25,774 nt of DNA from a virus: IMG/VR virus record IMGVR_UViG_3300025151_000263, positions 1-25,774 of that record; one strand, given 5' to 3'. Under the pieces are notes generated by a model that was not told the origin of the DNA, ran no database searches, and was given only the letters and a program-made list of their open reading frames with translations. Within the stretch, counting starts at the first letter, position 1, and the number at the start of each line of letters is the position of its first letter. Positions 5,839 to 20,026 of the stretch are shown piece by piece. A program made the translations under genes and the position numbers.

Positions 5839-6048
5839 ATGGATTTAGAAAAACATATATTTGATTGTATTACTAGGGTAGAAGCGCATGAAGCTAGATG
5901 TGCGGAAAGAGACAAAACAATATTTGCAAGGTTAGAAAAAATAGAAGCTCACTTAGAACAGTTAAACGCTAAATTGTTTCGAGGTGCAGTAATAATTATA
6001 GCAGGAATGACTACATTTATTATTTCGATATTAGGGCCATTTAATTAA
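5839..6048 (+). CDS. Small coiled-coil membrane protein, holin- or XhlA-like
   Basis: 69 residues. The N-terminal 45 are charged and helical with a heptad-like pattern (ERDKTIFARLEKIEAHLEQL). They are followed by one hydrophobic segment at about residues 49-66 and a two- to three-residue tail. A cytoplasmic amphipathic helix plus a C-terminal transmembrane helix is the layout of XhlA-type haemolysin/holin accessory proteins and some small phage holins. No endolysin lies next to it, so the lysis role is inference. The start has only a weak ribosome site and follows the preceding stop by 4 bases. It could instead be a membrane anchor for another phage protein. Confidence 0.6.
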   Translation: MDLEKHIFDCITRVEAHEARCAERDKTIFARLEKIEAHLEQLNAKLFRGAVIIIAGMTTFIISILGPFN

Positions 6049-17254: not shown

Positions 17255-17800
17255 TTGAAGAATAAACTTTTAATTTTAGTTCTTGTTTTATCTGCTTGCG
17301 CTACACCTATACACAAGACAAAAGCAGAAACAAACACTATCAGTAGTACACTTACGGGTACAACTACTGTAGACAAAACACCGCCGACTGCCTCTGCGCC
17401 GAACTTGGTTCTCAACAACCAGGACGTATGCAGCTACCCTGCCTCCGCAGCAGTTCAAACCCAAATACTGGGTTTTGCAGCAGGAACCACTATCCGCGAT
17501 AAGAACTGCGAACGCCTCAAACTATCGAGGGTTCTGTATTTCTCGGGCATGAAGGTAGCGGCGGTCTCTTTACTGTGCCAAGACCCCAGAGTATTTTCTG
17601 CTATGAATATGGCAGGTACTCCTTGCCCTTACATGGGTAAGATAGGGGCTGAGGCTACAGCTTTGTGGGAAGCTAACCCAAAGAAGAGACCAGACTACAA
17701 ACAACTTAAGCGGTCTAACGAAGCAAAAGCAGGGCGTTGGAGAAGGGTTCGCGGAGAAGTGACGTGGGTTCCTGAAGATGAAGAAGATACTGACGACTAG
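17255..17800 (+). CDS. Secreted lipoprotein with conserved Cys core (envelope cassette gene 1)
   Basis: 181 residues. Start is TTG directly after the previous stop; AAGGA lies 7 bases upstream and no better start is near. The N-terminus is a lipoprotein signal, MKNKLLILVLVLSAC, with lipobox LSAC (Cys15). Residue +2 is Ala, favouring the outer membrane. A Ser/Thr-rich linker (about 20-50) leads to a core with Cys in DVCSYP, KNCERLKLS, LLCQDPRVF and TPCPYMG, so two disulphides are possible. The C-terminus is basic then acidic. I recall similar cores in other marine phage proteins without known function. Bases about 17401-17520 are near 52% G+C by hand count, against about 30% at 16921-16980, suggesting acquisition. 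It overlaps the next gene by 23 bases. Confidence 0.75.
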   Translation: MKNKLLILVLVLSACATPIHKTKAETNTISSTLTGTTTVDKTPPTASAPNLVLNNQDVCSYPASAAVQTQILGFAAGTTIRDKNCERLKLSRVLYFSGMKVAAVSLLCQDPRVFSAMNMAGTPCPYMGKIGAEATALWEANPKKRPDYKQLKRSNEAKAGRWRRVRGEVTWVPEDEEDTDD

Positions 17801-19583
17801 CTTACTGCTAGTCTTTCCTTTCTTACAGGCAGATATTACTAGAGAAATTTGTCTAGCTAATCCTAACTGCACTATTACAGAGCAAACAACAACAGTAGAG
17901 ACAGAGGTTACGTCAGGTAATCTTGTGCCTGAGCTTAAAGATTGGCAAATGTCAGGGGACGCTACAGTTACGGGCGGTAATTACAGTTACTGTCAAGCAG
18001 GAGAAGCGTGTACAGGGTCTCAAGGTGGTACATTTAGCACAGAAATAGACTTTTCTGACGAGATGACAAAGGCTGAGATTAACAAGGGATTTGACTTTAA
18101 CTACGGAGTAACTGTTAATAGCCACAGCAGTAATGCTACGTTACCTTTGTGTGCTGACACAACAGGAGACTGTAAAGATACTGTTAAGATTAACGTAGTT
18201 CTAACAGAGAATAGTATAGAGATAGGAGAAAGTTTCTCTCACGAATTTGTATTAGACTATAAAGACCAGTACACCTATCAGTTTTCTCAATCTATCGGAA
18301 CGAATAACTACGAACAGTTGTCTGCTTGGTTATCTCTTTACGGCATAGATGACGGATACCCTAGCGGTATGTGGGGGCCACAGTTTATAGACCCGTACCT
18401 GACGTTAAATTATACGTCTATCGAGTACATTACAAACGAGATATACAACGTCATAGAAGCTGTAATAGACAATGACCAAACAGATTTAATTGTAGATATT
18501 ATTACAGAAGATACACAGACAGGCGAGTTAGTTGTAGTAGACACTATATCAGAAGAGGAAGAAGCAGTAGCTTTACTAGCAGAGCAAGAAGCGGCTAGGT
18601 TAGAAGAAGAACGCCTAGCACAAGAAGAAGCTGACAGAATAGCTGAAGAAGAACGATTGGCTGAAGAAGCAAGAATAGCTGCAGAGTTACTGGCAGAACA
18701 GGAAGCAGAAGAAGAACGAGAGGCTACAGTAGTTACCATAGCTGCTAGTGAAACAGAGATACAGTTTGAGGACTCTCCAGAGGACATATTTAACGAACCT
18801 CCAGAGATGCACTTTGCAGGGGGGCCAGAAGGCCCGATTGACTTTGCTGATACTACCGATACTTTTAGTTCTGCGGTGTTAGAAACAGCAATAGATACGC
18901 CTTCTCCTATGGAGCATTCAGGTGGTTTTGACCAGATGCCAGAGCCAGAAATATCTATGGAAATGGCTCCTCCAGACATGGGTTTTTCTAGCTTTGATGA
19001 ACCTATGTCAGAAGTACCCTTAGAAATGCCTGTAGACGCTCCTGAGATGCCCTCTATTGAGAGCATAGAGATGGAGGTAGAGCCAACCATAGCTCCTGTT
19101 GTAGAAGCTCCTAGAGAGGCTCCTGTGGCTCCTGAGAGTACCCCAGAACCAGAGGCTCCTAGAGTGGTAGAAAGTACCTCTGAGCCTGAGCCTGAAGCTA
19201 GTCCTGAGCCGTCAAGTAATCCTGAGCCTAGAGAGGAGCCTAGGACAGAAGTAGCGTCTGCAAGTGAGCCAGAAGAAAAGCCTGTAGCAGTTAAAGTCAA
19301 GCCTAAAGAAAGCAAGAAAGAACGTGTAGCCAGGAAGGTAGCTGAAAGAGTAATGACTACTTTAGCACAAACGTACAATGTGACTATGCAAAACGTAGCT
19401 TTAAATGTTATGGGAAGGCAGACAGATATTACATCTTACAATCAACAGATGCTTGACGCATCTAGCTGGTATCCTGACATGCAATTAGAGGGAGGTACGA
19501 ACTACGACCACCCTAGTCAGATATACATACAAGCAGCAGCTAATCAAGATATGGCAGAGTTGGAGGCTATACAATGGAGATAG
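17778..19583 (+). CDS. Secreted modular stalk protein (envelope cassette gene 2)
   Basis: 601 residues with a Sec signal (MKKILTTSLLLVFPFLQA, cleavage near 18). Modules in order: a beta-rich domain with several Cys (about 45-220), probably a jelly-roll or lectin-like fold; a Glu/Ala/Arg coiled coil (about 258-316); an acidic linker; a Pro/Glu/Met-rich stalk (about 385-500); a short Lys-rich hinge (504-522); and a helical C-terminal domain (523-601) with AQTYNVTMQNVALNVMG. The coiled coil plus Pro/Glu stalk recalls TolA/TonB periplasm-spanning architecture, but no TonB or TolA end domain is seen. It starts inside the lipoprotein gene and its end overlaps the next start by 10 bases, so the three are coupled. 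Virion or periplasmic role unresolved. Confidence 0.7.
   Translation: MKKILTTSLLLVFPFLQADITREICLANPNCTITEQTTTVETEVTSGNLVPELKDWQMSGDATVTGGNYSYCQAGEACTGSQGGTFSTEIDFSDEMTKAEINKGFDFNYGVTVNSHSSNATLPLCADTTGDCKDTVKINVVLTENSIEIGESFSHEFVLDYKDQYTYQFSQSIGTNNYEQLSAWLSLYGIDDGYPSGMWGPQFIDPYLTLNYTSIEYITNEIYNVIEAVIDNDQTDLIVDIITEDTQTGELVVVDTISEEEEAVALLAEQEAARLEEERLAQEEADRIAEEERLAEEARIAAELLAEQEAEEEREATVVTIAASETEIQFEDSPEDIFNEPPEMHFAGGPEGPIDFADTTDTFSSAVLETAIDTPSPMEHSGGFDQMPEPEISMEMAPPDMGFSSFDEPMSEVPLEMPVDAPEMPSIESIEMEVEPTIAPVVEAPREAPVAPESTPEPEAPRVVESTSEPEPEASPEPSSNPEPREEPRTEVASASEPEEKPVAVKVKPKESKKERVARKVAERVMTTLAQTYNVTMQNVALNVMGRQTDITSYNQQMLDASSWYPDMQLEGGTNYDHPSQIYIQAAANQDMAELEAIQWR
19115..19275 (+). repeat. Low-complexity Pro/Glu-coding repeats
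   Basis: Imperfect short repeats of CCTGAG and GAGGCTCCT encode the Pro-Glu-Ala-Ser stalk of the secreted protein. This low-complexity DNA could vary stalk length by slippage. It also creates a long, meaningless Ser-rich frame on the minus strand. Confidence 0.7.
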
Positions 19584-20026
19584 AATACAAAGGAATAAAA
19601 CTAGAGGGAACTAAGCTTCTGGTTATTGCACCACTATTAGGCACAATACTAGGGAGTCTGTGGGGAGGTTTTGAGCTGTTTACACGCTACCAATCTATGG
19701 AAGAGAAAATAAACGCCTATGTTGCTCCTGATATATCTGAGATAGAAAAGTTAGTTGCTGTATTCCAGAAAGAGACTACTAACGCTAAAGACTTAATGAT
19801 GGAGTCTCGTAACCAGACTAGAGAGGATATCGCTACGCTGTACAAGAACTTAGACAAACAAGACCTGCGTAACAGGTCTAATGTAGAGTCTGTAAGAGAG
19901 ATGATTACAGCATTTGAAGGTCGACTAGCAGACAAGATGGCTAGACTAGACGAACAGCAAGACGACTTAGAGTCTAAGCTTGACCTACGCATTAAACGTG
20001 CTTTAGAAAACCCTCTAATGAAGTAG
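19574..20026 (+). CDS. Inner-membrane coiled-coil protein (envelope cassette gene 3)
   Basis: 150 residues. A short N-terminus (MEIEYKGIKLEGTK) precedes one transmembrane segment at about residues 14-36 with a Gly-rich core (PLLGTILGSLWGGFELF). About 110 residues of heptad-pattern coiled coil follow, ending in a short basic tail. One N-terminal anchor and a long periplasmic coiled coil is the layout of inner-membrane spanins (Rz), though no Rz motif is seen. I recognise the N-terminal pattern EYKG.K..GTKLL from other marine phages, where its role is also unknown. GGAGG lies 7-8 bases upstream inside the previous gene, so translation is coupled. Its stop abuts the stop of the converging gene. 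Confidence 0.72.
   Translation: MEIEYKGIKLEGTKLLVIAPLLGTILGSLWGGFELFTRYQSMEEKINAYVAPDISEIEKLVAVFQKETTNAKDLMMESRNQTREDIATLYKNLDKQDLRNRSNVESVREMITAFEGRLADKMARLDEQQDDLESKLDLRIKRALENPLMK

Follow-up and report, generated by a model that had tools for sequence, protein, structure and literature searches.

The window analyzed here is a 25,774-base virus record from IMG/VR, a fragment derived from a tailed phage. It carries genes for a terminase, an SU10-type portal, a major head protein and the tail; its opposite strand encodes a ribonucleotide reductase, an exonuclease and a DNA polymerase. Three overlapping genes, termed A, B and C, form a cassette at positions 17255-20026, exactly where an initial annotation based on the nucleotide sequence had placed them; open reading frame analysis verified their coordinates as well as the overlaps of 23 bases between A and B and of 10 bases between B and C. 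The features of the cassette are as follows:

17255..17800, plus strand: gene A, exported protein of 181 aa with a four-Cys core (open reading frame, alignment, model)
17288..17299, plus strand: lipobox LSAC of A, residues 12-15, lineage-specific and no family trait (sequence)
17387..17674, plus strand: conserved core of A with Cys59, Cys85, Cys108 and Cys124 (invariant alignment columns)
17778..19583, plus strand: gene B, exported protein of 601 aa (open reading frame, alignment, model)
17865..18452, plus strand: head of B, a jelly roll resembling carbohydrate-binding domains (AlphaFold2, Foldseek)
18546..18749, plus strand: long charged helix of B, residues 257-324 (AlphaFold2 model)
18750..19313, plus strand: Glu/Pro-rich stalk of B, residues 325-512 (pLDDT below 50, sequence)
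19314..19577, plus strand: conserved C-terminal region of B (alignment, co-variation with A and C, model)
19574..20026, plus strand: gene C, one transmembrane segment and a coiled coil, 150 aa (open reading frame, alignment)
19610..19681, plus strand: hydrophobic, Gly-rich transmembrane segment of C (sequence; conserved in the C alignment)
20009..20017, plus strand: C-terminal Asn-Pro-Leu motif of C (alignment)

The TTG start codon of gene A, with AAGGAAG just upstream, directly abuts the stop codon of a 949-aa gene whose product weakly matches an internal virion protein. Hence, the cassette closes the late operon ahead of the convergent replication genes, a position that points to late expression. 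Elsewhere in the window, positions 5839-6048 encode an XhlA-like small protein, the pelagiphage relatives of which sit between tail fiber and TerL.

Architecture of the three proteins

Protein A combines an export signal and the four-Cys core with a linker rich in Ser, Thr and Asn, the length of which varies widely. The initial annotation regarded it as a lipoprotein with a good lipobox, which holds for the LSAC motif in the window's A but not for the family, since only 6 of the 87 non-redundant A proteins carry a lipobox. Most of these six also feature a signal-peptidase-I-like site, and the window's A likewise possesses a second, in-register site of this type, with the cut between KA and ETNT. 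Most A homologues appear to be cut at such a site, and given the scarcity of the lipobox, "outer-membrane lipoprotein" is no trait of the A family. The core of A yields a confident structure model, for which a Foldseek comparison with the PDB returned no fold match (best E 1.5). A hydrophobic C-terminal tail occurs in 16 of the 87 proteins; it is missing from the window's A and rarely coincides with a lipobox in one and the same protein, so that A was discarded as a candidate unimolecular spanin. Chromosomes of Hyphomonadaceae and further Alphaproteobacteria likewise encode Asn-rich secreted proteins with the four-Cys core (L317-L333; e.g. L319:6329-7420). These resemble phage A in signal peptide, Asn-rich linker and core but differ in that they stand alone between housekeeping genes with no C alongside.

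Protein B starts with a Sec-type export signal, followed by a beta domain (residues ~30-225) that is confidently predicted in the AlphaFold2 model. Foldseek matched this head to Fbs1 (E 1.6e-5) as well as to CBM61, CBM27 and CBM16, and one member of the B family matched CBM_4_9 (E 0.0027). The head is thus modeled with the fold of carbohydrate-binding modules (CBM4/9, 16, 27, 61) and of the sugar-binding domain of Fbs1, although identity in the structural matches amounts to ~8-15% and B is devoid of a catalytic domain. The initial annotation described a coiled coil and a Pro/Glu stalk in B; the model contains one long charged helix, followed by the Glu/Pro stretch, which is modeled with low confidence and probably disordered. 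The C-terminal helices of B reach low to middling model confidence. Across the family, the head is the variable part of the cassette, and the middle protein of roseophage cassettes is unrelated to B.

In accordance with the membrane anchor and long coiled coil initially assigned to it, protein C features a single N-terminal hydrophobic segment, which is succeeded by a long coiled-coil-like helix. An alignment of 29 divergent C proteins revealed an invariant Asn-Pro, the family ending in Asn-Pro-Leu/Met. Whole C proteins span 63 to 220 aa, and those of some phages comprise only 63-77 aa; judged by its length, a C protein of the latter size would hardly span the periplasm alone. Moreover, the lengths of B and C within the long-B family correlate only weakly (rho 0.33) and thus provide no hint of a ruler of fixed length across the periplasm. 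Matches of C to hemagglutinin, short tail fiber and LeoB were set aside as a matter of coiled-coil composition. Apparent misannotations were encountered among deposited homologues, namely C proteins labeled "lysozyme" in CRP-207 and CRP-810 and an A protein labeled "OmpA family protein" (L119:3292-3873, L120:9165-9587, L120:7779-8534).

Searches with A, B and C against Pfam, PHROG, PADLOC and PDB sequences identified no informative family. In particular, no match to a standard tail protein family, which would have spoken against the initial annotation, nor any informative match to other tail or virion structural families emerged from Pfam and PHROG, and the only hit to known defense models was a weak match of the coiled-coil type between C and LeoB (E 0.0002). 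A literature search found no function for the A-B-C family.

Distribution and co-inheritance

Scans of viral contigs with the single sequences of the window recovered at least 273 relatives for A, compared with 6 for B and 12 for C; other A proteins used as queries yielded 501 (HTVC202P) and 127 relatives (CRP-810). Among deposited phages, A is found in the Pelagibacter phages HTVC115P, HTVC023P, HTVC202P, HTVC033P, Mosig and Baldr, in the uncultured S28-C10, in two roseophages and in two spring-water phages. Besides roseobacter phages, the carriers include SAR11 podoviruses and a T4-like SAR11 myovirus. Nearly all of the deposited relatives are annotated as hypothetical, and the cassette genes of the carriers are either unannotated or misannotated, in agreement with the initial annotation, which placed similar proteins without function in other marine phages.

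The co-occurrence of the three genes, proposed initially as a check, was assessed in 67 non-redundant viral loci in which at least 3.6 kb of sequence follows A. The order A-B-C is present in 64 of them: an exported open reading frame occupies the B slot in 66/67, and a C with an Asn-Pro-Leu/Met end follows in 64/67. Iterated profiles recovered the same gene order. In addition, A, C and the C-terminus of B show strongly correlated pairwise distances (r 0.83-0.84, Mantel P 0.0002), whereas the correlation between the B head and A is lower (0.61). Together with the unrelated middle protein of the roseophages, these values fit a conserved coupling core that bears an exchangeable head. Overall, the cassette represents a genuine, widespread and co-inherited envelope module.

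Of the relatives that also encode the window's internal virion gene, L010, L012, L015 and L017 show the succession of internal virion protein, holin-like gene, A, B and C. The trio is missing from L008 and L009, L019 holds nothing at the cassette site, and a single gene of ~550-630 aa replaces the trio in L018, L020, L023 and L024. It follows that the cassette can be exchanged and that the virus group of the window does not depend on it. The replacement gene (L018:3203-5074, L020:11860-13608, L023:12493-14241, L024:1198-2856) lies between the internal virion gene and ribonucleotide reductase in L018, L023 and L024, while the L020 contig ends earlier. Other loci contain insertions within the cassette, named by eye as a PAPS-reductase-like open reading frame between A and B and a methyltransferase-like one between B and C (L107:1616-2419, L111:4740-5537, L050:12100-12654).

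Association with lysis genes

An endolysin, holin-like or spanin gene resides no more than four genes from the cassette in 41 of 64 loci. Endolysin genes are immediately adjacent in 11 loci versus 4.9 expected (P 0.004, within-locus null) and lie within three genes in 22 loci versus 13.2 expected (P 0.0007), where the null was drawn from gene positions within the fetched loci and loci were treated as independent. An earlier count restricted to GH24 and M15 endolysins (15/67 loci) was not above chance, and the wider endolysin families and the adjacency test were introduced after it; the neighborhood statistics are of moderate strength. The endolysins flanking the cassette on either side belong to the GH24, M15, GH19-type, GH108-type and amidase families. 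The commonest neighbor is a GH24 endolysin gene, which precedes A by a median of 470 bases and the stop codon of which meets or overlaps the A start in many loci. In some loci, C is followed by an M15 endolysin and a holin-like gene, and L157 displays the order XhlA-like, holin-like, A, B, C, lysozyme.

In the T7-like S28-C10, the cassette is inserted between tail fiber and TerL, a slot in which relatives of this phage hold XhlA-like, holin-like and lysozyme genes, the S28-C10-type "holin" label being derived from layout only, as the corresponding PHROG is of unknown function. T7 carries holin/Rz/Rz1 at this position. BAQ94069 of S28-C10, annotated as "amidase", was not accepted as such and looks like a membrane protein. 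A second conserved pair was observed in the lysis slot of SAR11 phages, comprising a C-related transmembrane coiled coil and a two-Cys protein of 69-73 aa (L124:7212-7786, L128:7104-7678, L113:13842-14430); HTVC115P has both this pair and the A-B-C trio.

In the window itself, which is a fragment record, neither an endolysin nor a holin adjoins the cassette, and no endolysin was found in the window with phrog_7. In the complete records of HTVC115P, HTVC202P, Baldr and S28-C10, the detected endolysin is ~10 kb or more away from the cassette. Proximity to an endolysin or holin is a property of the family by neighborhood that was not seen in the window itself.

Spanin-type genes coexist with the cassette in some loci: in L034, the second and third genes after C are of the Rz and Rz1 type, and in L050 and L073 an o-spanin-type lipoprotein gene lies beside the cassette, which argues against a stand-in for Rz/Rz1. 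With canonical spanins at such loci, the cassette is not simply the spanin. Among 11 complete carrier records, there was no o-spanin-type match and one marginal i-spanin-type match, a soft negative since small spanins readily escape such searches; in loci known to contain spanins, phrog_1275 and phrog_812 did produce matches.

Proposed role and alternatives

Taken together, the conservation of A-B-C in almost all loci, the correlated distances, the enrichment of lysis genes, the slot occupied in S28-C10 and the late position lead us to propose, tentatively and at somewhat less than even confidence, that A-B-C may constitute a late, exported and exchangeable accessory of the phage lysis module. 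This reading is weakened by the distant endolysin in the four complete records, the lack of one in the window, the relatives without cassette and the coexisting spanins. According to this proposal, C would be anchored in the inner membrane with its N-terminus inside, exposing the coiled coil and the Asn-Pro-Leu end to the periplasm, where A would reside as a probably disulfide-bonded protein that is possibly lipid-anchored in this lineage only. The C-terminal region of B would bind C and/or A, and the long stalk would present a swappable head that may attach to an envelope glycan, be it LPS, capsule or peptidoglycan. Upon holin and endolysin action, the putative complex would either weaken the outer layers or exert traction on them and thereby promote virion escape. 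Of the roles listed in the initial annotation, namely lysis, superinfection exclusion, DNA entry or a virion appendage, lysis is the one best in keeping with the gene neighborhood.

Alternatively, a B head displayed on the envelope might cover the phage receptor or LPS and thus exclude other phages or keep progeny off debris. Such surface masking is in line with the variable, glycan-binding-like head, the export signals and the accessory distribution of the cassette; it is nevertheless unlikely in view of the late operon position, the endolysin enrichment and the lack of any match to a defense or exclusion family.

A further possibility is suggested by phage T4, in which the holin T is accompanied by its periplasmic regulator RI. 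C is compatible in layout with a T4-type holin, as its single, Gly-rich transmembrane segment, its presumably periplasmic domain and the exported partners would make for a similar arrangement, so that C could act as the holin while A and B set lysis timing from the periplasm, which would also be consistent with endolysin adjacency. On the other hand, the cassette encodes two exported partners instead of one, shows no sequence match to T/RI or to any holin family, and is accompanied by separate holin-like genes in several loci, which renders a holin function of C quite improbable.

The two-component spanins, exemplified by Rz/Rz1 of lambda (reviewed in PMC6139136), share with the cassette a membrane-anchored coiled coil, an exported partner, overlapping genes and, often, a holin and endolysin nearby. 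In a strict version, A would be the o-spanin, C the i-spanin and B an extension, jointly fusing inner and outer membrane after endolysin action. C displays the i-spanin layout of an N-terminal transmembrane segment and a coiled coil on the presumed periplasmic side, and the window's A has a lipobox. The cassette differs, however, in comprising three genes, the middle one encoding a large secreted protein the head of which resembles glycan-binding domains, and in the lipobox not being conserved, so that the outer-membrane lipoprotein character of o-spanins is no trait of the A family. The strict version was rejected on account of the coexisting Rz/Rz1-type genes and the missing lipobox, and we rate it as distinctly improbable. 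The spanin-style bridge drawn in the initial annotation is not supported, for the same reasons, to which the shortest C proteins and the unrelated roseophage middle protein are to be added.

That the particle carries the three proteins as an appendage or DNA-entry complex, as the location directly after internal virion genes in the window and the stalk-plus-head design of B might suggest, is very unlikely, given that the Sec signals and conserved cysteines of A and B fit periplasmic proteins whereas tailed virions assemble in the cytoplasm, that no structural family was matched in Pfam or PHROG, and that the genome position varies among phages. A relationship to TolA/TonB, which unite an N-terminal anchor, a stalk and a Tol/Ton C-terminal domain in a single protein, was dismissed, as there is no Pfam match and B starts with a cleavable-type signal. 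Marine myophages of SAR11 and OM43 encode the curli pore CsgG/CsgF, for which a role in lysis timing was proposed (PMC9004378); these likewise represent unexplained envelope genes of such phages, but their layout is different and neither A nor B matches a curli family in Pfam, so that this reading was dropped as well.

Significance

SAR11 phages rank among the most abundant marine viruses, and we know of no established means by which they open the outer membrane. More generally, a survey of phages infecting Gram-negative hosts found no spanin in 91 of 677 genomes (PMC6139136). The cassette beside endolysins hence constitutes a concrete, testable candidate for outer-membrane opening, and cultured carriers are available in HTVC023P, HTVC202P, HTVC033P, HTVC115P, Mosig and Baldr. 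In its furthest-reaching form, which we regard as rather unlikely at present, the cassette would provide viruses of ocean bacteria with envelope-opening machinery of a third kind, in which an anchored coiled coil and a Cys-rich periplasmic protein show an exchangeable glycan-binding head, rupture or detach the outer layers and thereby complement spanins or, in phages without them, take their place.
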